A stretch of 53,393 bases of DNA, taken from the NCBI RefSeq assembly GCF_002159975.1, contig NZ_NFJR01000015.1, positions 1-53,393 of the forward strand. The letters are read 5' to 3'. The position numbers and the translations under genes are program-made. The notes beneath the pieces were generated by a model. It was not told where the DNA came from. It worked only from the letters and a program-made list of their open reading frames with translations, and searched no databases. Numbering within the stretch: position 1 is the first letter of the stretch; every line of letters starts with the position of its first letter. The DNA comes from Barnesiella sp. An22. Its GTDB lineage: Bacteria > Bacteroidota > Bacteroidia > Bacteroidales > Barnesiellaceae. Shown here piece by piece: positions 7,668-51,491 of the stretch.

Positions 7668-7712
7668 TGATAATGCGAGGGGCCGCCTTCGCACCACGCA
7701 AATACCAGAGCC

Positions 7713-9442: not shown

Positions 9443-9550
9443 CGGTTCCCTGCCCGGGTTCACCAACGACCGCCGGTGCCTCTTCGTCCCCCCTACTCGA
9501 TTTTATCCGACGAAGTCTCCCCTCGCTCTGTTTTCTTTGGACAAAAACAT

Positions 9551-9558
9551 TATCTTTG
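9551..9558 (+). promoter_or_regulatory. Candidate -7 element for the GH29 gene
   Basis: TATCTTTG matches TAnnTTTG, 26 bases before the fucosidase ATG. It shows that the fucosidase probably has its own promoter rather than depending on read-through from the response regulator gene. Confidence 0.55.
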
Positions 9559-9584
9559 TGACCATAAACAACGAATTACCCGCA

Positions 9585-11453: not shown

Positions 11454-11486
11454 CCTCCCGACCCATCCATACATCCAACGCATACC

Positions 11487-11523
11487 GCAGCACCCGCTCA
11501 CACCCCGTGAGACCGGGTGCTGC
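11487..11523 (+). terminator. Long hairpin after the GH29 gene
   Basis: GCAGCACCCG pairs with CGGGTGCTGC, with an inner CTCAC / GTGAG stem, 33 bases after the fucosidase stop. The following sequence has only a weak T run (CGCTTTAAAT). It probably ends the fucosidase transcript. Confidence 0.55.
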
Positions 11524-11551
11524 CGCTTTAAATGGCCCGCTCCAAGACTAT

Positions 11552-11616
11552 TAAAAATGTTACATTCACTATCAACGAGGTTTCGTGCAACATTTTTAGG
11601 AGCTTTCGCAACATTT
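11552..11616 (+). promoter_or_regulatory. Repeated motif, candidate HTCS operator
   Basis: A perfect 10-base inverted repeat (TAAAAATGTT at 11552-11561, AACATTTTTA at 11589-11598) overlaps two near-identical direct repeats, TTTCGTGCAACATTT at 11581-11595 and TTTCGCAACATTT at 11604-11616. Their shared ACATT cores are 21 bases apart, that is two helical turns. The array ends 29 bases upstream of the -7 element of the receptor gene. AraC-type HTCS regulators bind repeats of this spacing, so this is a plausible binding site for the HTCS at 20894-23659. Confidence 0.4.
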
Positions 11617-11644
11617 GTTCTATGTACCGGCGTGAACCATTTTC

Positions 11645-11652
11645 TATTTTTG
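11645..11652 (+). promoter_or_regulatory. Candidate -7 element for the receptor gene
   Basis: TATTTTTG matches TAnnTTTG, 53 bases before the receptor ATG and directly downstream of the repeated motif at 11552-11616. Confidence 0.5.
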
Positions 11653-11705
11653 CTCTCGCTAAGCCAAAAACAAGAACTTAACACAAATTTTATTTTTATG
11701 CTACC

Positions 11706-14075: not shown

Positions 14076-14170
14076 TACAGATTCTTCTATACATGATAAA
14101 ATCATAGGTGTTTATTTTCCGGGACAGAAAGATTCAATCCAAGGACAGCAGTAGAGACAAAGAGGCGTTT

Positions 14171-14243
14171 CGGCGAGGCCAGAGGTTACAAGCCTCGCCG
14201 AGACCCCAACCCGGAACAAGGCGAGCCCACTCTGCTCGGGCTC
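14171..14243 (+). other. Two hairpins between receptor and GH32 genes
   Basis: CGGCGAGGC (14171-14179) pairs with GCCTCGCCG (14192-14200), and GAGCCC (14223-14228) pairs with GGGCTC (14238-14243). Neither is followed by a T run on the plus strand. They may terminate weakly, or stabilise and process the transcript between receptor and enzyme genes so that the receptor mRNA is more abundant. The rest of the 254-base gap shows an AT-rich leader before the GH32 gene. Confidence 0.4.
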
Positions 14244-14329
14244 TGAAAAAATAGGGAGAGGTAAAAAAATTGTTTTAGGTTATTATTTACAAGTACGATT
14301 TTTCAAACATTTCATAAATAAAAACGACC

Positions 14330-16216
14330 ATGAAAATAGATTTCAGACATTCGACAAAAGTGCTGGCAACAGCAGCCGCAGTGGCCGCTCTCGCAGCTTG
14401 CCAACCGCAAAAAGGCAGTATCAGTCTCGAACACCAGGGCGATACGCTCACCATCGTTCACATCACCAATCCCTCGAAATACCTGATTCTCCCCATCCAG
14501 GAGTCTCGTCCCGAAGGTAAAGTGAAACTCGACACCGGCAGTCCTGCCGATGTAACCATGGACATCCGTCTGGCCGTAGACAGCGTAGACTACTATGTGC
14601 CTTTCGCCTTGCCCGAGGGTACCAAAGAGGCTACCGTAACTATAGGACAGGTTGCCGCCAACGCCATGTGCTGGGACAGCCTGCGTCTGGCCGACACGTT
14701 CGACACGACCAACACCGACTACTACCGCCCCGTCTATCACCACACCCCGCTCTATGGCTGGATGAACGATGCCAACGGTCTGGTATACAAAGACGGTGAG
14801 TATCACCTCTATTTCCAATACAACCCCTACGGTTCCAAATGGGGCAACATGCACTGGGGCCACTCGGTGAGCAAAGACCTCATCCACTGGGAACACCTGG
14901 CACCGGCTATCGCCCGCGATACGCTGGGTCACATCTTCTCGGGCAGCTCGGTAGTCGACCACTTCAACAGCGCCGGCTATGGCAAAGATGCTCTGATTGC
15001 CTTCTATACCTCGGCCAGCGACAAGTACGGTCAGATTCAGTGCATGGCTTACAGCACCGACAACGGCCGCACCTACACCAAATACGAGGGTAACCCCATC
15101 CTCACGCCGTTCGACGGACTGAAAGACTTCCGCGACCCGAAAGTATTCTGGTACGAACCGGCTCAGAAATGGTACATGATTGTATCGGCCGACAAAAACA
15201 TGCGCTTCTACAACTCGACCGACCTGAAACACTGGGAATACCTGAGCCAGTTTGGCGAAGGCTACGGCGTACAGCCCAACCAGTTCGAATGCCCCGACTT
15301 CATCCAACTGCCTGTCGACGGCGACAAGAACCACATGAAATGGGTGATGATTGTCAACATCAACCCGGGTTGCCCCTTCGGCGGTAGCGCTACCGAATAT
15401 TTCGTAGGCGAGTTTGACGGCAAAGAGTTCAAATGCGACAACGACAAGAGCGTGACCAAATGGCTCGACTTCGGTAAAGACCACTATGCTACCGTATGTT
15501 TCTCCAACACGGGCGACCGCACCATTGCCGTGCCCTGGATGAGCAACTGGCAATATGCCAACGCTACCCCCAACCTCCAGTACCGCAGCGCCAACGCCCT
15601 GCCCCGTGAGCTCTCGCTCTACACCAAGGACGGCGAAATCTACATGGCTGCCAATGCCGTGAAAGAGACCCAAGGCTTGCGCAAAGGTACCACGACCATC
15701 GCCGACATCGACCTGAAGGACGAGTATACCGTAAACCCGATGAAGACCGGACCCGAAGGTGCCTGCGAACTGGAGATGGACATCACGCCGAATAACGCCG
15801 ACACCGTAGGCTTCGCTCTCCTCAACGACAAGGGCGAAAAGGTAGACATCTACCTCGACCTGAAGGGCGGCCGCATCGTCATGGACCGTACACAAAGCGG
15901 TATCACCGACCTGAGCCGCTACGGCGAAGTGACCGTACACGCCAAGGAGACCGACGACCACCGCAAGAAACTGTCGGTAAACTACGTGAACGACTTTGCG
16001 CTGGGTACCTGGGCACCCCTCTCGCTGTGCAACGGCAAGACTTACCACCTCGATGTATTCGTAGACAAATGCTCGATCGAGATTTTCGTAGACGGTGGCC
16101 GCATTGCCATGACCAACCTCGTGTTCCCCACGGCTCCTTACAGTGCACTGCGTTTCTATTCCAAGGATGGTGAAGCCCAAATCAAAAATTTGAATATATA
16201 CCAACTGAGTCTGTAA
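14330..16216 (+). CDS. GH32 beta-fructofuranosidase / fructanase
   Basis: The 628-residue protein has a lipoprotein-type signal (AALAAC) and an N-terminal accessory region of about 120 residues, then the GH32 five-bladed propeller. All three catalytic motifs are intact: WMNDANG (nucleophile Asp147), RDP (Asp269) and ECPD (acid/base Glu320). A C-terminal beta sandwich (about residues 480-628) ends the protein, as in this family. It would release fructose from sucrose, raffinose-type sugars or fructans at the cell surface or in the periplasm. It is 19 bases ahead of the GH36 gene, in one operon with it. Whether it is exo-acting on short sugars or on fructan polymers cannot be told from the sequence. 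Confidence 0.93.
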   Translation: MKIDFRHSTKVLATAAAVAALAACQPQKGSISLEHQGDTLTIVHITNPSKYLILPIQESRPEGKVKLDTGSPADVTMDIRLAVDSVDYYVPFALPEGTKEATVTIGQVAANAMCWDSLRLADTFDTTNTDYYRPVYHHTPLYGWMNDANGLVYKDGEYHLYFQYNPYGSKWGNMHWGHSVSKDLIHWEHLAPAIARDTLGHIFSGSSVVDHFNSAGYGKDALIAFYTSASDKYGQIQCMAYSTDNGRTYTKYEGNPILTPFDGLKDFRDPKVFWYEPAQKWYMIVSADKNMRFYNSTDLKHWEYLSQFGEGYGVQPNQFECPDFIQLPVDGDKNHMKWVMIVNINPGCPFGGSATEYFVGEFDGKEFKCDNDKSVTKWLDFGKDHYATVCFSNTGDRTIAVPWMSNWQYANATPNLQYRSANALPRELSLYTKDGEIYMAANAVKETQGLRKGTTTIADIDLKDEYTVNPMKTGPEGACELEMDITPNNADTVGFALLNDKGEKVDIYLDLKGGRIVMDRTQSGITDLSRYGEVTVHAKETDDHRKKLSVNYVNDFALGTWAPLSLCNGKTYHLDVFVDKCSIEIFVDGGRIAMTNLVFPTAPYSALRFYSKDGEAQIKNLNIYQLSL

Positions 16217-38036: not shown

Positions 38037-38198
38037 CCCATAACCACAGGCAAAGGTAATTCGTGTTCTTCCCGTACAAGCAAGGCCAAGCCCTTCGGGT
38101 TCGTGGAAAAAATCATCCTCGCCCCGGAGGGCTTGCGGTATTTTTTCCCGAAGCCTTGCATGTACGGAACACGACCTTTTTAGGCCTGTAGTTATGGG
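38037..38198 (+). ncRNA. Structured element, copy A (leader of 38241 gene run)
   Basis: The two ends pair over most of their length: CCCATAAC with GTTATGGG, ACAGGC with GCCTGT, AAAGG with CCTTT, CGTGTTC with GAACACG, CCGTACA with TGTACGG, and GCAAGGC with GCCTTGC. Inside lie a CCC-TTC-GGG mini-hairpin and a perfect 9-bp stem GGAAAAAAT / ATTTTTTCC that closes the loop CATCCTCGCC...GGCTTGCGGT. The same layout recurs with different stem sequences in copies B and C. A small hairpin (TCCGGC / GCCGGA, 38202-38220) and the start codon at 38241 follow. RNA leader or single-strand DNA promoter; strand taken from the downstream genes. Confidence 0.8.
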
Positions 38199-38240
38199 AA
38201 CTCCGGCCCCAGAAGCCGGACTAACAAAAAATCAAATGTT

Positions 38241-39071
38241 ATGTTACAGGCAACAAAGAACAAGTACACGGTGGAAACACTCAAACCACTGAACATTCTG
38301 TACGATCATGAACACTGGCTGACACAGCAGGACGTGGATATGGCCAACGGCTATGTGGAACTGATAGAAAGGACACGCTCGGAAAAGACTCCACAGATAG
38401 GTGACAGACTCATCTATGTGGACAGATACGGGAAATATTACGGCAATGCCCTTATTGAAAACAATGATGAAGAGAGCGGTCGGATTTCCATCTGTGAAGA
38501 ACCTTATATTCCCTTTGTATGGGAGCAGGACGCCAATATCCGGCTGAGCGTCAGCGGAGGGGCCTTCCACCATATTGACCCCAAGCAATTGAAATTCGTC
38601 AGATGGACGGAAGGTGCATTCAAGGACTGGGGAAACTGCGGAGCGTGTGCCAACGGTGCCGTCACATTCACGGCAAAAGTACCGTTATGGTCCTATTCCG
38701 AACCTGATCCGCTCTACGGTGATTTCACCACGGAAACATGGAGACAATATTATTTGACCAAGGACACGGGTCCGGACGCACGCAACCTGTACCAGGGCTA
38801 CGACATAGCTTTCAGGACCGAAGAGAACTTCCGGCAGTTCCTGAAGGACTATGAAGGGACTGTGTTCAAGGGCAACTGGGAAAACCAGATCGTACTCTGG
38901 TGTTTCCGACATGAAAACCGGTTCCTGCCGCAGCACGAATGGGACAAGATAGATGCCCCGGCCATGGAACGGCGTCTCAACTTCCATCCCGAACAGGTCA
39001 AGCTGGTCAAGGACATGGACAGCCACATCACCTACTGTTACCGTATCAAACCCGAAATTGACAATCTCTAA
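38241..39071 (+). CDS. Conjugative-element accessory protein, DUF4121-like
   Basis: The 276-residue soluble protein has no signal peptide or membrane segment. It is rich in aromatic and acidic residues (VPLWSYSEPDPLYGDF, WRQYYLTKDTGPDARNLYQG, FCFRHEN-type strings). I associate it with DUF4121, found in Bacteroidales conjugative elements, from memory only. It is the first gene after structured copy A and ends 12 bases before the next gene. Function unknown. Confidence 0.65.
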   Translation: MLQATKNKYTVETLKPLNILYDHEHWLTQQDVDMANGYVELIERTRSEKTPQIGDRLIYVDRYGKYYGNALIENNDEESGRISICEEPYIPFVWEQDANIRLSVSGGAFHHIDPKQLKFVRWTEGAFKDWGNCGACANGAVTFTAKVPLWSYSEPDPLYGDFTTETWRQYYLTKDTGPDARNLYQGYDIAFRTEENFRQFLKDYEGTVFKGNWENQIVLWCFRHENRFLPQHEWDKIDAPAMERRLNFHPEQVKLVKDMDSHITYCYRIKPEIDNL

Positions 39072-39083
39072 AACAATACAGTT

Positions 39084-40025
39084 ATGCAGACAACAGCAAC
39101 AAGAACAGCAGGCAGCCACACTGACCTGCTTACAGGTATCCTGAACGTGCAAGTAAGGAACGAGGACAAGATTACAGAACAGGACCGGCAGTATTGCCAG
39201 CTACAGCAGGACCAGCTCTACAGGACACTTGACCGTATCGACCGATGGTATGACATCTTCAAGGAAGAAGCGGAACGGTATCGGGAAATCAAGAGCTTCA
39301 AGTATGAGGATAACGGTAAGGTCTCCATACGGAATTTCTATTTCAACAACAGCGGGGAGGATGACTATACCCACAACGAATTCAAACCGTTTGACCTCAT
39401 CAACGAGCTTGCGGACAACAACTGCAATGCCAACGCGAATTTCGCGAGTCGCATCATTTCCTATTTCAACAGGACCTACAATGTAGATGTACCCATTCCT
39501 GTAATCGACGAGAAGGCCATGCGCATGGGATTCCGTCCGGTCTACCAGACTTACGTGGACATGGTCATCGAACACCTCGGCGGAAAAAGTTTCCGTGAGA
39601 CCGCAGAGGAAGAACTGCTGGCCCGTTTCCTGAAAACGGTACAGCCTTCCCGCTGGAGCAAGGTGAAGCCCGAACTGAAAAAGGACAAGATAACTTTCCC
39701 TGACATCGTATCCTGGGACAGCATCCATCTGGAATACCACAAGGAATATGAGTTCTCGTATGACTGCGGAAGGAAAGTGGACATTTTCTGCGAAGGTATC
39801 GCATACGGGGCAGATGACGTGATAAACGGTTCAAGCGGTATGGTCATCGGCCTTGACAGACGCGATGTGGATATAACCGAATGGTACAACCTCACCCTGA
39901 GCAACGCAGAACAGATCAAGTTCTATAAGAACGGACGCATCGACGTACGCTTCAAGGACAGCCAGGCCGCAGAGTACTGCTACAGAAGGCTGCGGCTGGA
40001 TGAAATCACACTCAGAGAAGAGTGA
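39084..40025 (+). CDS. Conjugative-element protein of unknown function
   Basis: The 313-residue soluble protein has a charged, coiled-coil-prone N-terminal third (QDRQYCQLQQDQLYRTLDRI, KEEAERYREIKSFK), a middle part with FASRIISYFNRTYNVDVPIPVI and a beta-rich C terminus. I recognise no catalytic motif or family. It follows the DUF4121-like gene by 12 bases and is likely in the same transcript. Confidence 0.65.
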   Translation: MQTTATRTAGSHTDLLTGILNVQVRNEDKITEQDRQYCQLQQDQLYRTLDRIDRWYDIFKEEAERYREIKSFKYEDNGKVSIRNFYFNNSGEDDYTHNEFKPFDLINELADNNCNANANFASRIISYFNRTYNVDVPIPVIDEKAMRMGFRPVYQTYVDMVIEHLGGKSFRETAEEELLARFLKTVQPSRWSKVKPELKKDKITFPDIVSWDSIHLEYHKEYEFSYDCGRKVDIFCEGIAYGADDVINGSSGMVIGLDRRDVDITEWYNLTLSNAEQIKFYKNGRIDVRFKDSQAAEYCYRRLRLDEITLREE

Positions 40026-40044
40026 TTCATGAAATACTTATTCA

Positions 40045-40075
40045 GACACCCCGTAAGACATCCTTGCGGGGTGTC
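40045..40075 (+). terminator. Hairpin between gene 39084 and the methylase-helicase gene
   Basis: GACACCCCG pairs with CGGGGTGTC around a 13-base loop. The sequence after it (TCCGTTTCC) is only weakly T-rich, so termination may be partial. The next ATG is 31 bases further on. Confidence 0.5.
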
Positions 40076-40105
40076 TCCGTTTCCAACCATTAAAAAAGAA
40101 AAGAC

Positions 40106-43100
40106 ATGTATGCCATCATACCCCAACAGATTCCCCAGGACAGGCGTGCCGAGATCAACGAGAAAATCCTTTTCGCCATAGACTCGGGCAAGGACCTCGT
40201 TCCGAAGGAAAGCATCTACAACTGCTACACGGGAATCGGAGGACTGCACAACCTCAGACAGTCGGATTTCACCAGCTACCATGAATACGCCGAGGCCAAG
40301 AAGGAATTCGAGATGGGACAGTTCTTCACCCCGCACGACATATGCCGGAGCATGGTGGAGACCCTTTCTCCGACATCGGCGGAAATGGTACTTGACATGT
40401 GCTGCGGCATGGGCAACTTCTTCAACCATCTGCCCAACCTGCACAATGCCTACGGATTCGACATTGACGGCAAGGCGGTGGCCGTTGCCAGATACCTCTA
40501 CCCGGAAGCTCATATCGAGAAATGCGACATACAGCTGTACAATCCCGAACAGCGTTTCGACATCATTGTCGGAAATCCGCCCTTTAACCTGAAATTTGAT
40601 TACAGGCTGTCGCAGGAATTCTACATGGACAAGGCCTATGACGTGCTCAACCCTGCCGGAATCCTGATGGTCATCGTCCCTCTCTCCTTCATGCAGAACG
40701 AGTTCTGGGAAAAGACACGCGTGGCGAAAATCAACTCGAATTTCTCCTTCATCGGCCAGACCAGGCTGGAACATTCAGCCTTCTCTACGGTGGGCGTGCA
40801 GAATTTCGCAACAAAAATCATGGTATTCCTCCGCCGTTCCCTCCATATTGAAATGCAGCCCTACAACGCGGAAGAGTTTGTCAGCATGGATGAGCTGAAG
40901 AAACGCATAGCCGAAGTGCGGAAAATGAAACACCGGCTGCGCCTCCAGCTGATGCGGGAAACCAACCGGATAGACCGTGAGGAGCTGGAAGCGTTCGAGT
41001 ACAGACTTGCCAAGTACATGTACGAGCTGAAGGCCCATGCCGTGCTGAACAGGCATGTCGAAAAGGCGGAGGCGCTGGTGTCCAAATTCCGCAACCAGAA
41101 ACCGCCGGAAAATGCCACCCGGGAACAGATAAAGGAATGGGAACGCAAGAAACTGACCACCGGCAAGGTTCTCGGCATCATCCGCAGGTACATCACCTCG
41201 CAGAACGTGGTGCCGCGCAAGGAAGTGGCATTAGTGAAGACATCCTACGGCTTCAAGCTGAAGCAATATGCCCCGCGTCTGCTTGACAAGGTCACGCACA
41301 AGGCCGCAGGCATCAACGACCTCATACTCGGAAGGGCCGAACTCCCGATGCCGGAAAACGTCACAGAAAAGAACATGCGGCAGATCCGTGCCGCCAGTAA
41401 ACTGATACGGCGCAAACAGAGGCAATACGAGACCCAGAATCTCCAGTTTGCGGATATGCGGGAAGATGCCGGCCTGAAGGAATACCTGGACCGCACCACA
41501 TTCATCAACAAGGACGGTGAAGTCTGCGAATTCACGGACTTGCAGAAACACGACCTGAACCTCGTGTTGCAGAAACGCTACGCCCTGCTGAACTGGCAGC
41601 AGGGTTCAGGCAAGACTGCCGCCGTCTATCACAGGGCGAAATACCTGCTCAAGTTCAGAAAGGCAAAGAACGTCATCATACTTGCCCCAGCCATCGCCAC
41701 CAACATGACCTGGATACCGTTCCTTACCATAAACAAGGAACGCTTCCGTACAATACAGACCGCCGGCGACCTCAACAACATACCGGAAGGGACATTCCTT
41801 GTCGTCTCCACCTCCATGCTCCGGAAACTGAAAAGAGGACTGATGCGTTTCGTGAAACGCACTTCCGGCAAGCTGTGCCTTGTCTTCGACGAGTCGGACG
41901 AAATCACCAATCCCACATCGCAGCGTACAAGAAACATCCTGTGCATATTCAGGAGGCTCAGGTACAAGATCCTCGACACGGGAACAACCACCCGCAACAA
42001 CATCGCGGAACTGTACAGCCAGTTCGAACTACTCTACAACAACTCCGTAAACATGATATGCTGGAGCCCGCAGGTCTACCACGAAAACAGGGACCACGAG
42101 ATAGAGGAAGAGAACAACCCGGATTACGGAACACCGTTCCCCGCCTTCAGGGGGCATGTCCTTTTCCGTGCCTGCCACTGTCCGGGGAAAGCCACTGTAT
42201 TCGGCATCGAGAAACAGAACCAGGACGTGTACAACAAGGACGAACTCTCCGAACTTATCGGCAAGACGGTCATCACGCGTAAATTCAGGGACTTCGCAGG
42301 AGAGAAATACCGGGTACGTACGCATACCGTCCGCCCCTCGGAAGGAGAACACGAGGTGTACCGTGTCATCATCGAGGAGTTCTGCCGCATCTGCGAACTG
42401 TACTACAACAGCACGGGAGACACGAAAAAGGATGCGGGGCTGAGACTCATGAGGCAGATCAAGCTGCTTATCAAGGCCTGTTCGGTCCCGCACCTGATAG
42501 AGGGATATTACGGCGACGAATATCCCTCCAAGACCCGCTATATCGAAAGGCTCGTGAGGACAATACCGGGCAAAGTGGCCATCGGGTGCACCACGCTGGC
42601 GGCCTTCGACCTCTACGAGAGCTATATCCGGGCACATTTCCCCGACAGGCCGGTATTCGTGGTCAAGGGAGACGTGGCCTTCAGGAAACGTCAGAAAATC
42701 GTGACGGAGTTCGACTCCACCATCAACGGTATCCTGATATGCACGCAGCAGAGCCTGAGCAGCTCGGTGAACATACCTACCTGCAATGACGTGATACTGG
42801 AATCCCTGCAATGGAACATCCCACGTATGGAGCAGTTCTATTTCCGTTTCATCCGTCTGGACTCCAGAGAGATGAAGAACGTCCATTACGTCACCTATGA
42901 AGACTCGGTCGAACAGAACCTGATGGCCTTGGTGCTGACCAAGGAGCGTCTGAACGAGTTCATCAAGACGGGTGAGGTAAAGGAGCAGTCCGAGATCTTC
43001 GAGGAGTTCGACATCACGATGTCCGTCATAGACAGCCTGCTTGTCCGCACGCAGGACAGCGAAGGCAAGATACACATCAGCTGGGGAAGCCAGCGAATAA

Positions 43101-43108
43101 CAGAATGA
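40106..43108 (+). CDS. N6-adenine DNA methyltransferase fused to an SF2 helicase
   Basis: The 1000-residue protein has two enzymatic halves. Residues about 60-300 form a gamma-type N6-adenine methylase: QFFTP, the AdoMet motif DMCCGMGNFF (Asp97) and the catalytic VGNPPF (Asn157). A basic, coiled linker (about 300-480) follows. Residues about 480-960 look like a Snf2-type helicase: Walker A QQGSGKT (Lys503), Walker B VFDESD (Asp595) in place of DEAH, TGTTTRN as motif III and a C-terminal RecA-like domain. A methylase-helicase fusion on a mobile element resembles phage P1 DarB, which protects incoming DNA from restriction (family knowledge); that role here is inferred. A restriction or defence role is the alternative. 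Confidence 0.85.
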   Translation: MYAIIPQQIPQDRRAEINEKILFAIDSGKDLVPKESIYNCYTGIGGLHNLRQSDFTSYHEYAEAKKEFEMGQFFTPHDICRSMVETLSPTSAEMVLDMCCGMGNFFNHLPNLHNAYGFDIDGKAVAVARYLYPEAHIEKCDIQLYNPEQRFDIIVGNPPFNLKFDYRLSQEFYMDKAYDVLNPAGILMVIVPLSFMQNEFWEKTRVAKINSNFSFIGQTRLEHSAFSTVGVQNFATKIMVFLRRSLHIEMQPYNAEEFVSMDELKKRIAEVRKMKHRLRLQLMRETNRIDREELEAFEYRLAKYMYELKAHAVLNRHVEKAEALVSKFRNQKPPENATREQIKEWERKKLTTGKVLGIIRRYITSQNVVPRKEVALVKTSYGFKLKQYAPRLLDKVTHKAAGINDLILGRAELPMPENVTEKNMRQIRAASKLIRRKQRQYETQNLQFADMREDAGLKEYLDRTTFINKDGEVCEFTDLQKHDLNLVLQKRYALLNWQQGSGKTAAVYHRAKYLLKFRKAKNVIILAPAIATNMTWIPFLTINKERFRTIQTAGDLNNIPEGTFLVVSTSMLRKLKRGLMRFVKRTSGKLCLVFDESDEITNPTSQRTRNILCIFRRLRYKILDTGTTTRNNIAELYSQFELLYNNSVNMICWSPQVYHENRDHEIEEENNPDYGTPFPAFRGHVLFRACHCPGKATVFGIEKQNQDVYNKDELSELIGKTVITRKFRDFAGEKYRVRTHTVRPSEGEHEVYRVIIEEFCRICELYYNSTGDTKKDAGLRLMRQIKLLIKACSVPHLIEGYYGDEYPSKTRYIERLVRTIPGKVAIGCTTLAAFDLYESYIRAHFPDRPVFVVKGDVAFRKRQKIVTEFDSTINGILICTQQSLSSSVNIPTCNDVILESLQWNIPRMEQFYFRFIRLDSREMKNVHYVTYEDSVEQNLMALVLTKERLNEFIKTGEVKEQSEIFEEFDITMSVIDSLLVRTQDSEGKIHISWGSQRITE

Positions 43109-43138
43109 ACATGAACCGTATGGAGATGCCCGGAAGTC

Positions 43139-43296
43139 CCATTCCCACCGACAAAGGTAGTCCGCGTCCAGCTCGGCTGAGCAAGGTCATGCCGCAGGCG
43201 GTTTTCGGGAAAATCATCCTTGCCGGTGGCTGCGGTATTTCCCCGAAAAACCCAGCACAGCCGGGATACGGCACCTTTGGGGAGTCGGAGGAATGG
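43139..43296 (+). ncRNA. Structured element, copy B (leader of ardA gene run)
   Basis: Pairings at the same places as copy A but with other bases: CCATTCC with GGAATGG (outermost), CCGAC with GTCGG, AAAGGT with ACCTTT, then CTCGGCTG with CAGCCGGG, and inside TCGGGAAAAT with ATTTCCCCGA (one A-C mismatch). The loop CATCCTTGCCGGTGGCTGCGGT is nearly identical to the others. The ArdA-like gene starts 36 bases after its end, with a further short TGGA...TCCA hairpin between. Confidence 0.8.
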
Positions 43297-43332
43297 AACC
43301 CCCGGGCTCCATATACATAACAGGAAAAGAAT

Positions 43333-43824
43333 ATGGATCTGAACAATGCAGAGGTTGCCGTGACCACACAGCATCTCATGGACATAAAGGATTACAGGGA
43401 CTACTGGCTGCACCTGTCCGACTACAGCGGCATGAGCGAGTTCCTGTGTGCCTGTTCCGACCTGTTCCCCGGGGAAAAGGAACCGGAATACCGGTATCCC
43501 AGATGGGAGAACATCCCGGACACGCTGATCAGCCGTGAATGGCTCTGTCCCAACTTCTTCGAGATCAGGGACGCCCTTGAAAGGCTCGAAGAGGAAGAAA
43601 CGGAGTTTTTCATAAACTGGAGCAGGCATTACGGCTATGACATCACCACGGATGACCCGCACATGATGGTATCACATTACCACGACCTGTACGGGGACAC
43701 CGTCACGGAAGCTGAAGAAGACGCGGACACAGGAGAAGACGCCCTGATATACACGGGGGTATCGAGCTGCTACTGCGACACGCTTCCCTTCCGGTACGAA
43801 ATATTTGATGACAATTATGACTAA
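43333..43824 (+). CDS. ardA: ArdA-family antirestriction protein
   Basis: The 163-residue acidic protein matches the pattern of Bacteroides ArdA proteins as I recall it: DYWLHLSDYSGMSEFLCACS, then YPRWENIPDTLISREWL, then FFEIRDALERLEEEETEFF and the C-terminal YEIFDDNY. ArdA dimers mimic bent B-DNA through surface acidic residues and block type I restriction enzymes. It lies directly behind structured copy B and after the methylase-helicase gene, which fits an anti-restriction module that acts early in a new host. Confidence 0.75.
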   Translation: MDLNNAEVAVTTQHLMDIKDYRDYWLHLSDYSGMSEFLCACSDLFPGEKEPEYRYPRWENIPDTLISREWLCPNFFEIRDALERLEEEETEFFINWSRHYGYDITTDDPHMMVSHYHDLYGDTVTEAEEDADTGEDALIYTGVSSCYCDTLPFRYEIFDDNYD

Positions 43825-43836
43825 AAGACAAAAGAT

Positions 43837-44148
43837 ATGGAAATCAACTTCAAAGGACCTGTAATGCCCATCGACCCGTATTCGCAGCTGGCATTCGTGG
43901 AGATACTGAACATCATTTTGACGGCAGGACACATCGTGGACGTGAACCGCTCCCTCATAAGCAGGAACGTCAATCCGCAGTTCGGTTCGCTGTCAGGCTA
44001 TTTCAGATGGTCGTTCGCCGGAGACCGCTTCACGCTCTGGCAACGCACGGACTACAATTCAACGCTGTGTTTCAACCACAGGATACTCGACCTGCCTTTC
44101 GGTGTCCTGGCAGCGAACGGCAACGGGAAAGAGACAAAAACAAACTGA
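43837..44148 (+). CDS. Small conjugative-element protein, unknown
   Basis: The 103-residue soluble protein reads FKGPVMPIDPYSQLAFVEIL near its start and FRWSFAGDRFTLWQRTDYN near the middle. No known domain recognised. It begins 13 bases after ardA, after a purine-rich stretch, so it is likely co-expressed with it. Confidence 0.6.
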   Translation: MEINFKGPVMPIDPYSQLAFVEILNIILTAGHIVDVNRSLISRNVNPQFGSLSGYFRWSFAGDRFTLWQRTDYNSTLCFNHRILDLPFGVLAANGNGKETKTN

Positions 44149-44175
44149 AAGAGAGACAACAGAAAAATAAACACA

Positions 44176-44203
44176 TGTACGGGAAACGGAATCCTGCCGT
44201 ACA
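44176..44203 (+). other. Hairpin before gene 44217
   Basis: TGTACGG pairs with CCGTACA around a 14-base loop, 13 bases before the start codon of the next gene. It could reduce or control ribosome access. It is unrelated in sequence to structured copies A-C. Confidence 0.4.
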
Positions 44204-44216
44204 CAGGTAACGGAAT

Positions 44217-45149
44217 ATGGGAGAACAAAAAAGACTGACCATGGAATTCGTGAAATCGCTTATGGACAAGTCCTACACGCTGGTGTGGGTGGGCTACAAC
44301 GACAACTTCGACAACTGCCATGACACCATTCAGAAGTGTCTGGAAGAAAGGAGTTGTGAAAGTCTATGGGAGAAAGTGGACGAGTGGTACGATGACGCGG
44401 AATGGGAAGCAGTCCATGAAATCGTCTCAAAGCTGAAGAATGAATGCTCCGGCTCCCACGGCTTTGAAGAAGAGGAGGTGGAAGAGTTCTTCGAGGAACA
44501 TGAGGAAGAAATCAGGGAGGAAATCTACAACCGAAACGATTCAGACATCTTGAAAGAACTGATTAAGAACACGGATGACATTCCCGTGCGTGTCGAGATG
44601 CTCTCCAACTACGACTGCATCAATTCCAACTGGCTGGAATCGCAGGAAGGTTACCGGTACAAGGAGTCCTATTTCGGGGACATGGTCGATGCCCTGAATC
44701 TCAATCCTGCCAAGGTGAAGAAAGTTTTGGTGGAGAATGGTTACACGGTGTACGGTCGTTTCCCCGACAAAAAATACAGGGACGGCAAGGAACAGATATC
44801 CTACGAACAATTCTACCAGGAACTCATTAACTCCTGTTGTGGTGCCAACCTGCTGACCTATATCGGCAAGGTAAGCCTGACGGAACTCTATGACGCTGGA
44901 TTCTCGCTCGGGGAAGTCATTATTCCCAAAGGCAACTGCTGCGGCATATTCAGCTCCATGTACGGTGGGGGAAGTCTCCTGGAGATGGAGCTCAAAAAGG
45001 ATATCAGGCTGAAGCTGGAAGTCAGGGACTATCACGGATTCCGCTTCCGTCTTGACAGCGAGAACTCAAAATATGAATGCTCCATCAAGCATGTGTACGG
45101 GGTATGCGATTCCTTCTTCGGAGAAAAGATAGGTCTTGTCGCTTCATAA
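44217..45149 (+). CDS. Acidic conjugative-element protein, unknown
   Basis: The 310-residue protein has a very acidic segment around residues 80-105 (EEEEVEEFFEEHEEEIREEI) and a C-terminal half with ELYDAGFSLGEVIIPKGNCCGIF. A second possible start is the ATG at 44241. No membrane segment and no catalytic motif recognised. The strong acidity is reminiscent of DNA-mimic proteins but that is speculative. Confidence 0.6.
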   Translation: MGEQKRLTMEFVKSLMDKSYTLVWVGYNDNFDNCHDTIQKCLEERSCESLWEKVDEWYDDAEWEAVHEIVSKLKNECSGSHGFEEEEVEEFFEEHEEEIREEIYNRNDSDILKELIKNTDDIPVRVEMLSNYDCINSNWLESQEGYRYKESYFGDMVDALNLNPAKVKKVLVENGYTVYGRFPDKKYRDGKEQISYEQFYQELINSCCGANLLTYIGKVSLTELYDAGFSLGEVIIPKGNCCGIFSSMYGGGSLLEMELKKDIRLKLEVRDYHGFRFRLDSENSKYECSIKHVYGVCDSFFGEKIGLVAS

Positions 45150-45180
45150 ATCAAGTATGGTCACTTAAAGATATCAAATC

Positions 45181-45669
45181 ATGGAAAAGAAATATGCAAT
45201 CATCCTATTCAAGGGAAAAGAATACCTGTGCGGACACGAAGACGGCTGCCATTACGATGTGTCCTGCCCGGTGAGGACATTCACTGAAGGAGAAGACGAC
45301 TTCAAAATTCAGGAATCCGGAAAAGACCGTTCAGAAAAGACATTCCGATATCATGGAAAGGAATTCAGGCTTGTCACCGGCTTCTACCCGAACGGATGGC
45401 CGGTTCTGAGTCTGGAATCACCGGACAACGGGGAACTATACACGGTACTTACCGTCAATCTGGAAGACTCCCCGGCATTCGGGATTCCCGACCAGGCATT
45501 CATTGACATAAACAACAATCCGGAAGCGATGGAATTCCTCATAAGGAACAGCCTTGCCGAAGATACGGGATACAGACGCAAAAGCGGATGGGTGGAATAC
45601 CCGATGGCCAAACTGAACCTGGCTGAACTGTACCGGTTGTCACCGGAATCGTTCGAGAACCAAGAATAA
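45181..45669 (+). CDS. DUF4313-like conjugative-element protein
   Basis: The 162-residue protein ends with LTVNLEDSPAF, FIDINNNPEAMEFL and GYRRKSGWVEYPMAKLNL, a pattern I associate with DUF4313 proteins of Bacteroidales mobile elements. The first third is beta-rich with CGHEDGCHYDVSC. Function unknown. Separate start 31 bases after the preceding gene. Confidence 0.65.
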   Translation: MEKKYAIILFKGKEYLCGHEDGCHYDVSCPVRTFTEGEDDFKIQESGKDRSEKTFRYHGKEFRLVTGFYPNGWPVLSLESPDNGELYTVLTVNLEDSPAFGIPDQAFIDINNNPEAMEFLIRNSLAEDTGYRRKSGWVEYPMAKLNLAELYRLSPESFENQE

Positions 45670-45708
45670 GAATCAACAATAGAAATCATTAACCAAATCA
45701 TAGGAATT

Positions 45709-46290
45709 ATGGCAAAGTACGAAGTAAGAGTAAGGTACGCCTTCGAGGGTACCTACAAGGTCGTTGCGGAAGACCGCGACGAGGCGGAAAGAATTGTAAC
45801 AGAAGACTGCGGTCTGGTATTGGGCGGAAACATCCACACTACCCGCGATGATGACGAGGTGACAGACTGGAGATTCGGCAGTCACCCTGACATGCAGATC
45901 CTTTCTTTCAGGGAACGGGTTGGCAAAGGCAAGGTCAGATACACGTCCATGTGTTTCAGCGACAGGATTGAAGAACTGAGAAAGGACATAATCGAAGCCA
46001 TCAGGCAACTGCTCGATGCGCACGGCCTGAAAAAAATCACGTTTACCGACAACGAAAAAGACCCTGTATGGATTATCTGGTTTGACGATAATGCAGAACC
46101 ATACGAGTGTTATGTTACAGGAATTGAGGTTACTGACAAGCACATTACCGTGTTGGCAACAATAAAGGACAGTATGGAAGAGGTTTTCTGTCAGAGTCCT
46201 TTCGAACTCGGAGCCAGCAACATTGATTGGCTTAATCAAATGTACGAAGCAGTAAGGCTTCAACTTGAAAATACAAAAGGAAACTCTTGA
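45709..46290 (+). CDS. Conjugative-element protein with DpnD/PcfM-like N terminus
   Basis: The 193-residue protein starts MAKYEVRVRYAFEGTYKVVA followed by EDRDEAERIV, a short beta-beta-alpha pattern seen in DpnD/PcfM-type proteins of mobile elements (tentative). The rest is alpha/beta with no catalytic motif. Soluble. It may be co-transcribed with its neighbours at 13-39 base spacing. Confidence 0.6.
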   Translation: MAKYEVRVRYAFEGTYKVVAEDRDEAERIVTEDCGLVLGGNIHTTRDDDEVTDWRFGSHPDMQILSFRERVGKGKVRYTSMCFSDRIEELRKDIIEAIRQLLDAHGLKKITFTDNEKDPVWIIWFDDNAEPYECYVTGIEVTDKHITVLATIKDSMEEVFCQSPFELGASNIDWLNQMYEAVRLQLENTKGNS

Positions 46291-46303
46291 AACGAAAGAC
46301 AAT

Positions 46304-46534
46304 ATGGCAACAAAAATCAATATGGACAGATACGTCTGGGAAGGATGGACTGTCGGAGCGTTCATCAGGGAACTGGCCCCGCAGGTGGAAATGATCATGA
46401 GCGGGCAAAGCTGGAGGGAACCTTTCAGGAACAAACAGGAACTGGCGGACTGGTGCAGGGACAACCAACCCTATTACAAGAAAAGGATCCCTGAAGTGAA
46501 CAGCCATTTTGCAAGGATGTATAACCTTAAATAA
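46304..46534 (+). CDS. Small conjugative-element protein, unknown
   Basis: The 76-residue protein reads MATKINMDRYVWEGWTVGAF and has LADWCRDNQPYYKKRIPEVN near its end. The ATG at 46304 was preferred over 46265, which would overlap the preceding gene by 26 bases. No family recognised. Confidence 0.55.
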   Translation: MATKINMDRYVWEGWTVGAFIRELAPQVEMIMSGQSWREPFRNKQELADWCRDNQPYYKKRIPEVNSHFARMYNLK

Positions 46535-46544
46535 AAACAACATT

Positions 46545-47141
46545 ATGAAATATCAAGCGGAAAATGCAGTCTCCAGCTTCTTCTACTATATGTGGAATGC
46601 CTGGTGCGAGGAAGAGTGCAGGACAGTATTCAAGGAAATGCACCCACACTTTTGGGAAAAATGGTCTCTGATGACGGACAAGGGAATATTCGGAGCCGCT
46701 GAACGGTTCTATGCGGAACTGACGGACCGTTACAGGGAAAAGCTGGTGGAACGGGCCGTCAGCCTGTATGACGGCAAAGCCAGACGCAAACACCCGGACG
46801 ATTCCGAAATCAAGGTGTGCAATGATTGCGGTTCAACGGAGATTGAAATCCAGGCATGGGTGGATGTAAACACGAATGAATACCACAGTGACGTGGACGA
46901 TGACATCTGGTGTTCCCGGTGTGAGGACAATGTGGAGACCTGCTCCAAACAATCCTTTCTGGAAAAGATGCAGGAATGGTGGAAATCCAACAGCACCGAT
47001 AACCTTGAATACCTGACCGGATTCAAGACATCCGATTTCCCTTCAGCCAATTCCGGACAGACATTCGCCGAGGCCGCCGACGAATGGTGGAACGGCAAAA
47101 ACTATGACGAGAAGAGGAACATATACCTGACAAACAATTAA
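46545..47141 (+). CDS. Conjugative-element protein with zinc-ribbon-like cysteines
   Basis: The 198-residue protein has a CNDCG pair at about residue 90 and CSRCEDNVETC about 35 residues later, giving a CxxC...CxxC arrangement like a zinc ribbon. The N-terminal part (FFYYMWNAWCEEECRTVF) is helical. The start at 46545 was chosen because the ORF's upstream ATG overlaps the previous gene. Function unknown; nucleic acid or protein contact is a reasonable guess. Confidence 0.6.
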   Translation: MKYQAENAVSSFFYYMWNAWCEEECRTVFKEMHPHFWEKWSLMTDKGIFGAAERFYAELTDRYREKLVERAVSLYDGKARRKHPDDSEIKVCNDCGSTEIEIQAWVDVNTNEYHSDVDDDIWCSRCEDNVETCSKQSFLEKMQEWWKSNSTDNLEYLTGFKTSDFPSANSGQTFAEAADEWWNGKNYDEKRNIYLTNN

Positions 47142-47152
47142 AGACAACGGCT

Positions 47153-47362
47153 ATGGCACGGAACATCATTGACCTGATCTGCAACTCATGCAGTTGCGGC
47201 AAGGAAGAGGCACAGGAATACCTGGACGACGAGATAAGAAACCTGCAGGAACTTCAGAAAGACAACGACCTGAGAAGCGAAGACTTCGAAATCGCGTGCA
47301 GCAACCTCGGACTCGACCAGGACTGGCAGATATATTTCATCAACCGTCTTGCGGGACTTTAA
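47153..47362 (+). CDS. Small conjugative-element protein, unknown
   Basis: The 69-residue acidic protein (NSCSCGKEEAQEYLDDEIRN, GLDQDWQIYFINRLAGL) is predicted helical. It is 11 bases after the previous gene and 10 bases before the J-domain gene, so it belongs to the same transcript. No family recognised. Confidence 0.55.
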   Translation: MARNIIDLICNSCSCGKEEAQEYLDDEIRNLQELQKDNDLRSEDFEIACSNLGLDQDWQIYFINRLAGL

Positions 47363-47372
47363 TATCTACACT

Positions 47373-48443
47373 ATGACTTATTTTCAGAACATACACTCAC
47401 TGGCGGAGCTGAAAAAAGAATACCGCCGTCTGGCAATGCTTCACCACCCGGACAAGGGTGGTGACACTGCCCTCATGCAGCAGGTGAATACCGAATTCGG
47501 AAAGCTGTTCGAGGTCTGGAAAGACAAGCCTTGCGTTTCCACAACCCCGACAGGCTACGAACACGACTTTCAGGATGCCACCGCAAAGGAATACACCGAA
47601 TACGTGTACAATGAATACCGCTGGAAAGGGCGCAACTACAACGGGCAGTCCGCGCCGGAAATCACGGAACTGGTCAGGGCATGGCTCAAGGAGACCTATC
47701 CGAGATACACCTTCTCGGTCCGCAGGGACGGATACAACTCAATCCTTATCCGGCTGATGAAAGCGGACTTCGAGGCTTTCACCAGAGAATCCGGCAAGGT
47801 ACAGGGAGACATCAACCACTACAACATCCAGGCATCGGACAGTCTGACCGACCGGGCCAAGGAGGTGATGACAAACGTCAGGGATTTTGTGATGTCATAC
47901 AATTTCGATGAAAGCGACCCCATGACCGACTATTTCCACACCAACTTCTACCTCACGCTCGGAATCGGCAGCTACAGACAGCCGTACCGGATGGAACTGC
48001 CGAAGATTACGGGAAAAGACACTCCTGAAGTGTTCAGGTATCCTGAAGGACCTGCACACAAGGCTATGCGACAGGCACTGGGCAAGGCGCGTTTCGGCTT
48101 CATCGAGAGCCGGAAGCATATCGGGGAAATGATACTCGGAGAAGACTTTTACGGCTCACAGGGAGAACATTATTTCTGGCCCAAGGAGTATTCAAGCGCG
48201 AAGACGGCACAGAAACGCATCGGAAAACTGGAGGCAGCCGGAATGCACTGCGAACTGACAGGCTGCAACGGCGGATACATACGCCTGCTCGGATATACTC
48301 CGGAGACGGAAAGCAGTCTGGAACGGGAAAGGCAGGAATATGCCACGGCATACCGGAAGTGGGTGTCAGAACACGGCATATCCCCAAATACGGGAACAGT
48401 ACACCAGAACATTTCAAATCCAATCAGACAGATACAATTATGA
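47373..48443 (+). CDS. J-domain protein of a conjugative element
   Basis: The 356-residue protein opens with a J-domain: ELKKEYRRLAMLHHPDKGGD, with His25-Pro26-Asp27 as the HPD motif that stimulates the ATPase of Hsp70/DnaK. The glycine/phenylalanine and zinc-finger parts of DnaJ are absent. The middle resembles the LPD29-type domain of large polyvalent proteins (AWLKETYPRYTFSVRRDGYN, tentative). Such a partner could recruit the host chaperone to DNA transfer or to a defence target (inference). The start at 47373 is used; an ATG 24 bases upstream overlaps the previous gene. Confidence 0.75.
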   Translation: MTYFQNIHSLAELKKEYRRLAMLHHPDKGGDTALMQQVNTEFGKLFEVWKDKPCVSTTPTGYEHDFQDATAKEYTEYVYNEYRWKGRNYNGQSAPEITELVRAWLKETYPRYTFSVRRDGYNSILIRLMKADFEAFTRESGKVQGDINHYNIQASDSLTDRAKEVMTNVRDFVMSYNFDESDPMTDYFHTNFYLTLGIGSYRQPYRMELPKITGKDTPEVFRYPEGPAHKAMRQALGKARFGFIESRKHIGEMILGEDFYGSQGEHYFWPKEYSSAKTAQKRIGKLEAAGMHCELTGCNGGYIRLLGYTPETESSLERERQEYATAYRKWVSEHGISPNTGTVHQNISNPIRQIQL

Positions 48444-48787
48444 CAAACAGGGAAATTATCAGAGAACTGAAACGCTGCGGCTACAGCCGGGTGGACATTG
48501 ATACGGACAGTAGAGCCGCAAAGACTTTCTACACCTACCGTGGCGGGCTTCATATCAACGGTACGGAAGATCTGTCATTCCATATCGTACCGCCACAGGA
48601 CAGTCTCGGACTGGGACGGTTTGCAATATGCGCCACCCGTAACGGGGAAAGCTCACAGCTGGGGACAGACCAAGCCCCGTTCTTTTTCCGGTGGCTGCTT
48701 GCCTTCCTCAAAGGTGAGAGAAAAGAGAAAGAGATAATAGATGAAATAATCTACAAAGCGGATTCACATGAAAACGGCACAATTTAG
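48440..48787 (+). CDS. Conjugative-element protein, unknown
   Basis: The 115-residue protein starts MTNREIIRELKRCGYSRVDI. Its ATG overlaps the stop of the J-domain gene by 4 bases, implying coupled translation. The rest is mixed with a helical, charged C terminus (FLKGERKEKEIIDEIIYK). No family recognised. Confidence 0.6.
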   Translation: MTNREIIRELKRCGYSRVDIDTDSRAAKTFYTYRGGLHINGTEDLSFHIVPPQDSLGLGRFAICATRNGESSQLGTDQAPFFFRWLLAFLKGERKEKEIIDEIIYKADSHENGTI

Positions 48788-48831
48788 CCATAAACCTAAT
48801 AACACAGATATAAGTTTGATGACCCTGAATT

Positions 48832-48998
48832 TTTATTTTCCTCCCTGCAAAGGTAGTCCCGTGTCCAACGTACCCGGACAAGGTCAGGCCCCTATGGGGT
48901 TGGCTGAAAGAAAATCATCCTCGCCGATGGCTGCGGTATTTTCTTTCGCCAAACCTTGCGGGTACGGTCACGGGACAGTCAGGCAGGTGAAAAATAAA
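48832..48998 (+). ncRNA. Structured element, copy C (leader of DUF4120 gene run)
   Basis: Third copy of the same layout: TTTATTTT pairs with AAAATAAA at the base, CCTGC with GCAGG, GTCCCGTG with CACGGGAC, GTACCCG with CGGGTAC and CAAGG with CCTTG, a CCC-CTAT-GGG hairpin, and a perfect 10-bp stem GAAAGAAAAT / ATTTTCTTTC closing CATCCTCGCC...GGCTGCGGT. A 7-bp hairpin CCGGCTC / GAGCCGG (49004-49020) and the ATG at 49051 follow. An open frame across it (48768-49037) is judged not to be a gene. Confidence 0.82.
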
Positions 48999-49050
48999 AA
49001 ATACCGGCTCCCGGAGCCGGACGTGTTTAACAGATAAAATACAATGAGTC

Positions 49051-49341
49051 ATGAAAATCCTGAATGAAGAACATTTCCAGAATGTAAAGCGTTACGCCGA
49101 ATCCATCGGTGACACATCACTCCAGAATTGTCTGGACAGACTGAAAAAATGGGAGGAGAATCCAGACCATCCAAGCGAAATCTCGCTCTATTATGATCAT
49201 GCCCCGTACTCGTTCGGCTTCACGCAACGCTATCCAGACGGAAGCATCGGCATTGTAGGCGGTCTGCTCTATCACGGAATACCCGACCAATCCTTTGCCG
49301 TGACACTTGAACCGTTCCACGGATGGCAGATACATACCTAA
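49051..49341 (+). CDS. DUF4120-like conjugative-element protein
   Basis: The 96-residue protein (ESIGDTSLQNCLDRLKKWE, GSIGIVGGLLYHGIPDQSF, EPFHGWQIHT) fits DUF4120, a small family of Bacteroidales mobile elements, by recall. Function unknown. First gene after structured copy C. Confidence 0.75.
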   Translation: MKILNEEHFQNVKRYAESIGDTSLQNCLDRLKKWEENPDHPSEISLYYDHAPYSFGFTQRYPDGSIGIVGGLLYHGIPDQSFAVTLEPFHGWQIHT

Positions 49342-50426: not shown

Positions 50427-51491
50427 ATGACTTGGAAAAAAGCAAATATCATCATAGACGGCCGAAAGATGGAAATCCCGGCCCCCGACATCATATCGGC
50501 AAGCCGCAGCACGGACATCCCGGCATTCTATGCGGACTGGTTCTTCCATCGGCTCGAAACCGGCTATTCCGTGTGGAACAACCCGTTCAACGGAAAAAAG
50601 AGCTATATCTCTTACCAGAATACAAGATTCATAGTGTTCTGGTCGAAAAATCCCAAACCTCTTCTTCCTTATCTGCCGATCCTGAAAGAAAGAGGTATCG
50701 GTTGCTATATCCAGTTCACTTTGAATGATTATGAGGAAGACGGACTGGAAACCGGTGTCCCTCCGCTGACAGAACGTATTGAAACATTCAGGACTCTTTC
50801 CGATATATTGGGCAAAGAAGCCGTAATATGGCGGTTCGATCCGCTGATACTCACAGACAACATATCCGTGGATACTCTGATTGAAAAGATCGAACGTGTA
50901 GGAACGGAGATACACAATTGTACGGAAAAGCTGGTTTTCAGTTTTGCAGACATAGACTCGTACAGAAAGGTCAAGGCCAACATGACAGACAGCGGAATCC
51001 CATATCATGAGTGGAATAAAGAAAAAATGGAGGAGCTTGCCGGAAAACTGACGGTACTGAACCGTAACAGAGGATGGAATCTGGAGCTGGCTACCTGCGG
51101 CGAAAATCTGGATCTTGGCAAATACAGGATATCCCGTAACCGCTGCATCGACGGTGACCTTATAGCACGTCTGGCATGGAAAGACAAGGAGCTGATGTCC
51201 GCATTGGGCGTCATCATACAGGAAATGCCGTCTCCAGCCTTTTTCGACATGAATGACCTTCCTTACGGTGCCGTGATTCTCCCTGGCAACAAATACTTCG
51301 TCAGCAATCACAAAAAGGATCCGGGACAACGCACCTCATGCGGATGTATGGCAGCCAAGGATATCGGGGAATACAATACCTGCCCCCATCTCTGCGAATA
51401 CTGCTATGCAAATTCAAGTAAAAAATCGGCAATCATGAACTGGGAAATGCACCGGCAGAACCCTATGGCGGAAACGATAACCGGAAAGTAA
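50427..51491 (+). CDS. DUF1848 family protein, iron-sulfur type
   Basis: The 354-residue protein starts with SASRSTDIPAFYADWF and ends with a cysteine cluster (CGCMAAKDIGEYNTCPHLCEYCYA), the marks of DUF1848. The spaced cysteines could hold an iron-sulfur cluster, and the barrel-like body resembles radical-SAM-fold proteins, but no reaction has been established that I know of. It ends 10 bases before a convergent terminator. Confidence 0.8.
   Translation: MTWKKANIIIDGRKMEIPAPDIISASRSTDIPAFYADWFFHRLETGYSVWNNPFNGKKSYISYQNTRFIVFWSKNPKPLLPYLPILKERGIGCYIQFTLNDYEEDGLETGVPPLTERIETFRTLSDILGKEAVIWRFDPLILTDNISVDTLIEKIERVGTEIHNCTEKLVFSFADIDSYRKVKANMTDSGIPYHEWNKEKMEELAGKLTVLNRNRGWNLELATCGENLDLGKYRISRNRCIDGDLIARLAWKDKELMSALGVIIQEMPSPAFFDMNDLPYGAVILPGNKYFVSNHKKDPGQRTSCGCMAAKDIGEYNTCPHLCEYCYANSSKKSAIMNWEMHRQNPMAETITGK

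Follow-up and report, generated by a model that had tools for sequence, protein, structure and literature searches.

Covarying hairpins with sigma-ABfr promoter boxes ahead of gene runs of Bacteroidales conjugative elements: candidate single-stranded-DNA promoters

Three hairpins in a Barnesiella conjugative element

The window analysed here is the whole stretch 1-53,393 (53,393 nucleotides, nt) of contig NZ_NFJR01000015.1 from Barnesiella sp. An22 (assembly GCF_002159975.1). It carries three copies, A, B and C, of a long imperfect hairpin, each standing ahead of a run of plus-strand genes of a conjugative element, and these hairpins are considered here as candidate single-stranded-DNA (ssDNA) promoters. 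An initial annotation, made from the sequence letters, had pointed out the three copies and the fixed short strings that they share, and all of these are present in the sequence. Each hairpin is composed of an outer stem, the box CAAAGGTA, a bulged spacer stem and CAAGG, followed by a small side hairpin, an inner stem and the conserved tip ATCATCCTYGCC...TGCGGTATTT. When read on the minus strand CAAAGGTA becomes TACCTTTG, that is the -7 box TAnnTTTG of sigma-ABfr, the main sigma factor of Bacteroidetes. The sigma-factor boxes on the opposite strand and the role proposed for the fold are additions to the initial annotation. The features of the three copies are as follows (z, z-score of the ssDNA fold; gap, distance to the -7 box).

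38037..38198, minus strand: copy A, whole hairpin from outer stem to outer stem (z -10.0), leading the DUF4121/N6-methyltransferase run
38051..38058, minus strand: copy A, -7 box, TACCTTTG on this strand, predicted to be largely paired
38081..38085, minus strand: copy A, -33 box CCTTG, paired with the opposite arm (gap 22 nt)
38112..38143, plus strand: copy A, conserved tip ATCATCCTCGCC...TGCGGTATTT (tip pattern)
43139..43296, minus strand: copy B, whole hairpin (z -5.3), leading the run that starts at 43333
43152..43159, minus strand: copy B, -7 box, TACCTTTG on this strand, predicted to be largely paired
43182..43186, minus strand: copy B, -33 box CCTTG (gap 22 nt)
43213..43240, plus strand: copy B, conserved tip (tip pattern)
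48832..48998, minus strand: copy C, whole hairpin (z -7.3), leading the DUF4120/DUF1848 run
48848..48855, minus strand: copy C, -7 box, TACCTTTG on this strand, predicted to lie in an internal loop
48879..48883, minus strand: copy C, -33 box CCTTG (gap 23 nt)
48914..48941, plus strand: copy C, conserved tip (tip pattern)

A large family in Bacteroidales

The hairpin belongs to a large family for which Rfam offers no name. The initial annotation had been unable to name one either, and a search of the whole window with 4227 Rfam models gave no match at the gathering score, on the copies or elsewhere, and one chance-level match outside the copies. A pattern describing only the tip, in which the box is not included, identified 77 genomic and 2 viral loci; 71 of the 77 are in records of Bacteroidales or unresolved Bacteroidetes. 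Of the remaining six, L030, L066 and L068 are chance matches, and L074, L077 and L078 are real copies whose assemblies bear the labels Acetatifactor, Clostridium and Lachnospiraceae; these three correspond either to mis-binned contigs or to spread to Firmicutes. After removal of L001-L006 and of exact duplicates, the 99 pattern matches were reduced to 79; visual inspection next eliminated L030, L039, L066 and L068, taken to be chance matches, and 4 more were removed because of short flanks, leaving 71 copies that fall into 14 classes at 85% identity.

A covariance model, the approach suggested in the initial annotation, matches in 50 of 295 genomes sampled across the order Bacteroidales. In 27 genomes picked for carrying a locus it finds from 1 to 23 copies each, and 11 in the genome of Barnesiella sp. 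An22, whose contig C16 (G000:C16, L101) has its own copies A, B and C at 6488-14833 (three by exact pattern). The exact tip pattern is found in only 2 of 393 genomes of the order, so exact patterns under-count the family.

Copy A is without a match in the plasmid collection. The phage collection contains 1 record matching copy C and 4 matching copy A, all of them unannotated faecal 'Bacteriophage sp.' entries. Such unannotated faecal records carrying the element (MT836551, MT837091, MT836373 and MT840077) may be misfiled conjugative elements. A survey of human microbiomes reported thousands of candidate RNAs (PMC8040213, in part); the motif was not found by keyword in its main text, and the supplements may list it.

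Sigma-ABfr boxes at a fixed distance on the minus strand

The sigma-ABfr consensus consists of TAnnTTTG at -7 and TTTG at -33 (PMC7366714, in part). On the minus strand of the hairpins, NAnnTTTG is found in the -7 position at 21-24 nt from a paired CCTTG, whose TTG occupies the -33 position. Both boxes are present in 65 of the 71 copies, with a gap of 22 (47 copies), 23 (16) or 21 nt (2); this set is free of selection for the box because the tip pattern does not contain it. Some classes begin the box with other letters, CAACTTTG, GACCTTTG and AACCTTTG, and retain the A at position 2 and TTTG. The 51 non-redundant copies, a set that is not free of selection for the box since the covariance model includes it, show the same conservation (A2 in 50, T5 in 51, T6 in 51, T7 in 48, G8 in 50 and T1 in 35), and the gap is 22 or 23 nt in 48 of them. 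Among the 50 of these copies with sufficient flank, 33 contain TAnnTTTG on the minus strand of the element itself, against 1.5 in shuffles, and 32 of these have the -33 box. A divergent class from Alistipes (L034, L063 and L076) keeps the tip and a TATCTT-type box and is devoid of CCTTG at its usual place.

The boxes of the main host sigma factor lie on the hairpin arm that faces outward, toward the genes. As duplex DNA, the promoter would be directed away from these genes, and it is the folded minus strand that would direct transcription toward them.

Sigma factors read the -33 box as duplex and the -7 box as a single non-template strand. The mean unpaired probabilities calculated for the minus strand as ssDNA over the 51 copies are 0.06 for the -33 box, 0.10 for the spacer stem, 0.56 for the spacer bulge, 0.57 for the -7 box and 0.07 for the outer stem. 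In 46 of the 51 copies the openness of the -7 box exceeds that of either flank, and in only 32 is the box more than half open. In the folds that cover copies A, B and C as well, the boxes of L012, L025 and L034 were positioned manually and L063 was left out.

The fold is under selection

Three types of evidence bear on the fold. First, the minus strand of each copy, folded as ssDNA, forms from one strand a long, stable, imperfect hairpin of the kind described for the Frpo/ssi class; none of 200 dinucleotide shuffles was as good for any of the three copies (z-scores in the list above). Second, the outer arms diverge strongly among the 14 classes, each still pairing with its own partner. When the arms are swapped between classes, the mean pairing energy weakens from -18.0 kcal/mol for native arms to -6.2 (standard deviation, sd, 3.1), and the native partner ranks best of 14 in 13 of the 14 classes. 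Third, in an alignment of 22 diverse copies, the covariation score is 0.399; shuffling the columns lowers it to 0.144, and with slid partners it does not exceed 0.145. Changes on both sides are observed in 13 of the 25 consensus pairs (10.2 in shuffles) and in 92 alignment cells (31 in shuffles). One of the five covariation measures, the number of further pair types, shows no excess (31 against 31.5 in shuffles). The hairpin fold is thus under selection, and the arm-swap and covariation tests bear out the structured, covarying repeat proposed initially.

Orientation relative to open reading frames and transfer genes

All 54 copies with at least 900 nt of downstream sequence are followed by a plus-strand open reading frame (ORF) of at least 70 amino acids (aa), whose ATG is at most about 280 nt (median 20 nt) from the hairpin end. 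Over the 900 nt downstream, the plus strand has the longest open stretch in 44 of 54 cases, compared to 21 of 46 for the 900 nt upstream.

The position of the hairpins relative to the transfer genes was examined among the copies listed (at least 160, of which 41 of 160 are without mobC within 65 kb), partial and low-scoring mobC and TraG rows and the Barnesiella sp. An22 copies being excluded; all counts of this kind given below refer to these copies. A mobC gene (PF14293) is found within 65 kb of 119 copies from 28 elements, on the same strand in 116 cases and on the opposite strand in 3, and 124 of 127 copies are opposite to TraG. Only 1 of the 33 contigs with two or more copies has mixed strands. 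The elements are related, and these strand counts do not represent independent events. Together with the ORF positions, they agree with the initial statement that the repeat heads plus-strand gene runs of a conjugative element. The only scored copies opposite to the nearest mobC are G410:C23:12848 and G398:C80:38397 and 38964.

Several elements share copy positions relative to mobC, at about -32, -27, -20 and -6 kb and again between +2 and +4.5 kb and between +8 and +18 kb. Copy positions differ in other elements, with extremes at -53 and +53 kb. Overall the 119 copies are divided almost equally between the tra side (60) and the mob side (59). In the G292 element (L095-L098 end to end), ORFs that by eye resemble group II intron reverse transcriptases are located at local positions 54700-56400 and 64254-66059; they split traG and mobB, each having the same direction as the gene that it splits.

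The origin of transfer and the transferred strand

The relaxase gene is typically located in the lagging region, the last to enter the recipient (PMC11541004, in part). Applied to elements whose copies are on the mobC strand, this rule implies that the transferred strand is the template of the mob genes and of the gene runs, that is, the strand with the boxes. A region resembling an origin of transfer (oriT) lies between traA and mobA (for example at about 7694-7844 in L136) and could be aligned in all 17 elements taken. It includes a conserved hairpin, whose arms differ among elements yet pair, with an outward-facing CTTGC on both sides, possibly a double nick site. The two resulting nick candidates, CTTG^C, are mirror images of one another and the minus-strand one is the more conserved: the 12 nt 5' of the site contain 21.5 versus 18.4 bits, and the 8 nt 3' of it 14.3 versus 11.5. 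This conservation would point to the minus strand as the transferred strand, and is suggestive only. Skews at four-fold sites toward the minus strand, calculated for the 17 elements, are +0.016 for GC (sd 0.030) and +0.057 for TA (sd 0.067), the spread exceeding the mean in both cases.

A candidate single-stranded-DNA promoter

Frpo-type ssDNA promoters are described for plasmid F, ColIb-P9 and their relatives (PMC9849209 and PMC11541004, both in part). We consider it likely that each copy of the hairpin is an ssDNA promoter for sigma-ABfr that acts in a Frpo-like manner. The element would enter the recipient as one strand, here the minus strand, of which about 160 nt would fold into the long imperfect hairpin. 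The fold would rebuild a paired -33 box and, in most classes, would keep the -7 box (NAnnTTTG) open in advance, as a bubble in the non-template arm. Transcription would start near the hairpin base, for copy A at about 38180-38195, and RNA polymerase would exit along the incoming strand as template, so that its product would be the mRNA of the plus-strand genes directly downstream. Once the second strand is made, the duplex promoter would face the other way and the genes would become silent or depend on other promoters. The transcript might also prime second-strand synthesis. We infer that the minus strand is transferred, that the polymerase uses the hairpin and that the genes have an establishment or anti-defence role. 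The broader proposal seems on balance probable: that Bacteroidales integrative conjugative elements carry a set of sigma-ABfr ssDNA promoters with a pre-opened -7 box, about 7 per element in several of them, through which establishment genes are activated exclusively while the element is an incoming single strand.

Several observations weigh against this interpretation. Some concern the boxes: 6 of the 71 copies are without the box in the box search, the first T is absent in 16 of the 51 non-redundant copies, and pairing of the -7 box exceeds one half in 19 of the 51. In the window itself, this box is predicted to be largely paired in copies A and B, and copy C has a clear internal loop. Within 200 nt upstream of the element, minus-strand TAnnTTTG is found in 10 of 50 copies, against 3.7 in shuffles, for which we have no explanation. 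The fold is also stable as plus-strand RNA, with z-scores of -9.8, -3.0 and -5.9 for A, B and C and 0, 2 and 0 of 200 dinucleotide shuffles as good.

Others concern position and transfer. On the tra side, only 11 of the 119 copies are less than 10 kb away from mobC, unlike the tight leading-region pattern of Frpo, and the 59 copies on the mob side would be in the part that, under the ssDNA-promoter interpretation, enters last. In CTnDOT-like elements such as G394:C7, G408:C9 and G401:C1, RteC is located on the mob side, at a distance of 10 to 14 kb from mobC. We take tetQ to be the neighbour of RteC. The marker that a CTnERL deficient in excision is reported to have transferred was just 20 kb away from oriT (PMC5729914, in part). 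If this marker is tetQ, mob enters first, the minus strand is not the transferred strand and the ssDNA-promoter interpretation fails. Among the copies listed, none is within 65 kb of mobC in these CTnDOT-like elements. The identity of their mobA and mobB to the counterparts in one hairpin-bearing element is only about 45-50%, and the oriT core is common to the two element types, so that transfer polarity is probably the same in both. The shared oriT core and the number of copies on the mob side reduce our confidence in the ssDNA promoter.

Alternative interpretations

The best surviving alternative, which we nevertheless regard as unlikely, is that the hairpin is a plus-strand mRNA leader (an antiterminator, an attenuator or a protein-binding site) controlling the runs together, like the EGeRS of pLS20 or put-type RNAs. 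The put-type RNAs provide an example of a cis-acting RNA leader. A leader would account for copies heading gene runs on one strand per element, for stable plus-strand RNA folds and for a conserved tip. The authors of the pLS20 study did not consider their regulatory sequences to be ssDNA promoters (PMC8708921, in part). A leader would leave unexplained a sigma box on one strand at a fixed distance from CCTTG. Moreover, plus-strand TAnnTTTG, facing the genes, is found within 200 nt upstream in just 1 of 50 copies (2.1 expected), in none of 50 in the interval between element and gene (0.9 expected), and inside the element in 1 of 50 (0.8 expected). This motif in these three intervals was the only gene-facing promoter searched for, and promoters or transcripts from farther away are possible.

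Non-canonical pairs also bear on the choice between DNA and RNA. G-U is tolerated far more than A-C in RNA helices, and a functional RNA would favour G-U on its own strand. Taken over all model pairs, G-T exceeds A-C (70 versus 21 cells), as a leader would predict. However, the excess comes from pairs outside a filter of more than 60% Watson-Crick pairing; within that filter the two are similar (26 and 21 of 1238 cells). This balance, and the scarcity of plus-strand boxes, favours DNA over an RNA leader.

A second alternative, quite improbable in our view, is a single-strand initiation site (sso/ssi-like) whose main product is a primer RNA for the second strand rather than an mRNA. Frpo itself is described for transcription and primer synthesis alike, and several copies spread along one element would suit such a function. 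However, the same-strand ORF directly following all 54 testable copies would be needless for priming alone, and a priming site requires the same transferred strand as the ssDNA promoter.

A third, which appears very improbable, is an ordinary duplex promoter directed leftward, producing an antisense or small RNA, with the palindrome as its operator. The boxes do form a good sigma-ABfr promoter on the duplex minus strand, and the additional minus-strand TAnnTTTG upstream of 10 of 50 copies is in line with this. However, the outer stem joins the sequence past the predicted start to a segment well to the rear of the -33 box, and the covariation of these arms would have no purpose in a duplex promoter. 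Finally, a recombination site read as a folded single strand (attC-like or REP/IS200-like) is extremely improbable: such sites typically combine a conserved fold with variable arms, but copies found at recurring distances from mobC in several elements appear stable in position rather than shuffled.

Relation to known systems

By their descriptions, Frpo and ssi of F and ColIb-P9 resemble the present hairpins in being long hairpins that rebuild promoter boxes from one strand, ahead of early genes, and in occurring more than once within an element (PMC9849209 and PMC11541004, in part). They differ in that their boxes are sigma-70 -35/-10 boxes, whereas here we observe sigma-ABfr boxes with a gap of 21-24 nt, a bulge in the middle of the spacer and a conserved tip. 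They also differ in that the present elements are integrative, belong to another phylum and have half of the listed copies on the mob side. The main text of PMC11541004 includes no word beginning with Bacteroid. Searches of the open-licence literature, as distinct from subscription papers and preprints, yielded no description of ssDNA promoters in Bacteroidota.

The EGeRS of the pLS20 family are likewise conserved structured sequences ahead of establishment operons (PMC8708921, in part). The authors weighed an ssDNA promoter and rejected it, both because the fold contains no promoter and because the nicked strand is the non-template strand. In contrast, the Bacteroidales hairpins do include promoter boxes within the fold, which sets them apart from EGeRS.

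At sso and other priming sites of rolling-circle plasmids and of ICEBs1, the host polymerase acts on folded ssDNA and the product is a primer. The resemblance to the present proposal lies in the polymerase acting on folded ssDNA; the difference is that the product there is a primer and not an mRNA for the adjacent run.

In the literature considered here, expression from incoming ssDNA has been worked out for enterobacterial plasmids (PMC9849209 and PMC11541004, both in part). The present proposal, if true, would extend ssDNA promoters to a second phylum and a different sigma factor, would reveal an element-wide programme of zygotic induction and would make the question accessible in abundant gut bacteria. 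It would also mark the unknown genes first expressed in the recipient, among them those for DUF4121, DUF4120 and a 1000-aa methyltransferase-helicase. The hairpins, which differ in sequence, would then constitute a natural library for learning what the polymerase needs to start on folded ssDNA.

Genes headed by the hairpins

The genes of the three runs in the window include the following.

38241..39071, plus strand: DUF4121 gene, first of run A (E 1.1e-65)
39084..40025, plus strand: protein of run A without a family match
40106..43108, plus strand: 1000-aa protein of run A with matches to N6 DNA methyltransferase and helicase domains
43333..43824, plus strand: 163-aa protein, first of run B, without a family match
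49051..49341, plus strand: DUF4120 gene, first of run C (E 5.6e-57)
50427..51491, plus strand: DUF1848 gene of run C (E 4.7e-90)

The runs of the window also encode DUF4313 and LPD29 proteins, and other copies in a related element head a YpsA/SLOG gene and PRTRC genes. An anti-restriction or anti-defence role for the 1000-aa methyltransferase-helicase would be a guess by resemblance only. The DUF4121 and DUF4120 labels given initially to runs A and C are supported by family matches. The ardA label given to 43333-43824 found no support in Pfam, NCBIfam, PADLOC or the PDB, by sequence or by profile, and the AlphaFold model of this protein (mean pLDDT 53) is too poor for use.

A small G+C-rich hairpin, CCGGC...GCCGG, is located between the outer stem and the start codon of copies A (38203-38219) and C (49004-49020), and is also seen in relatives. 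Lying near the 5' end of the predicted mRNA, it might have a stabilising role.

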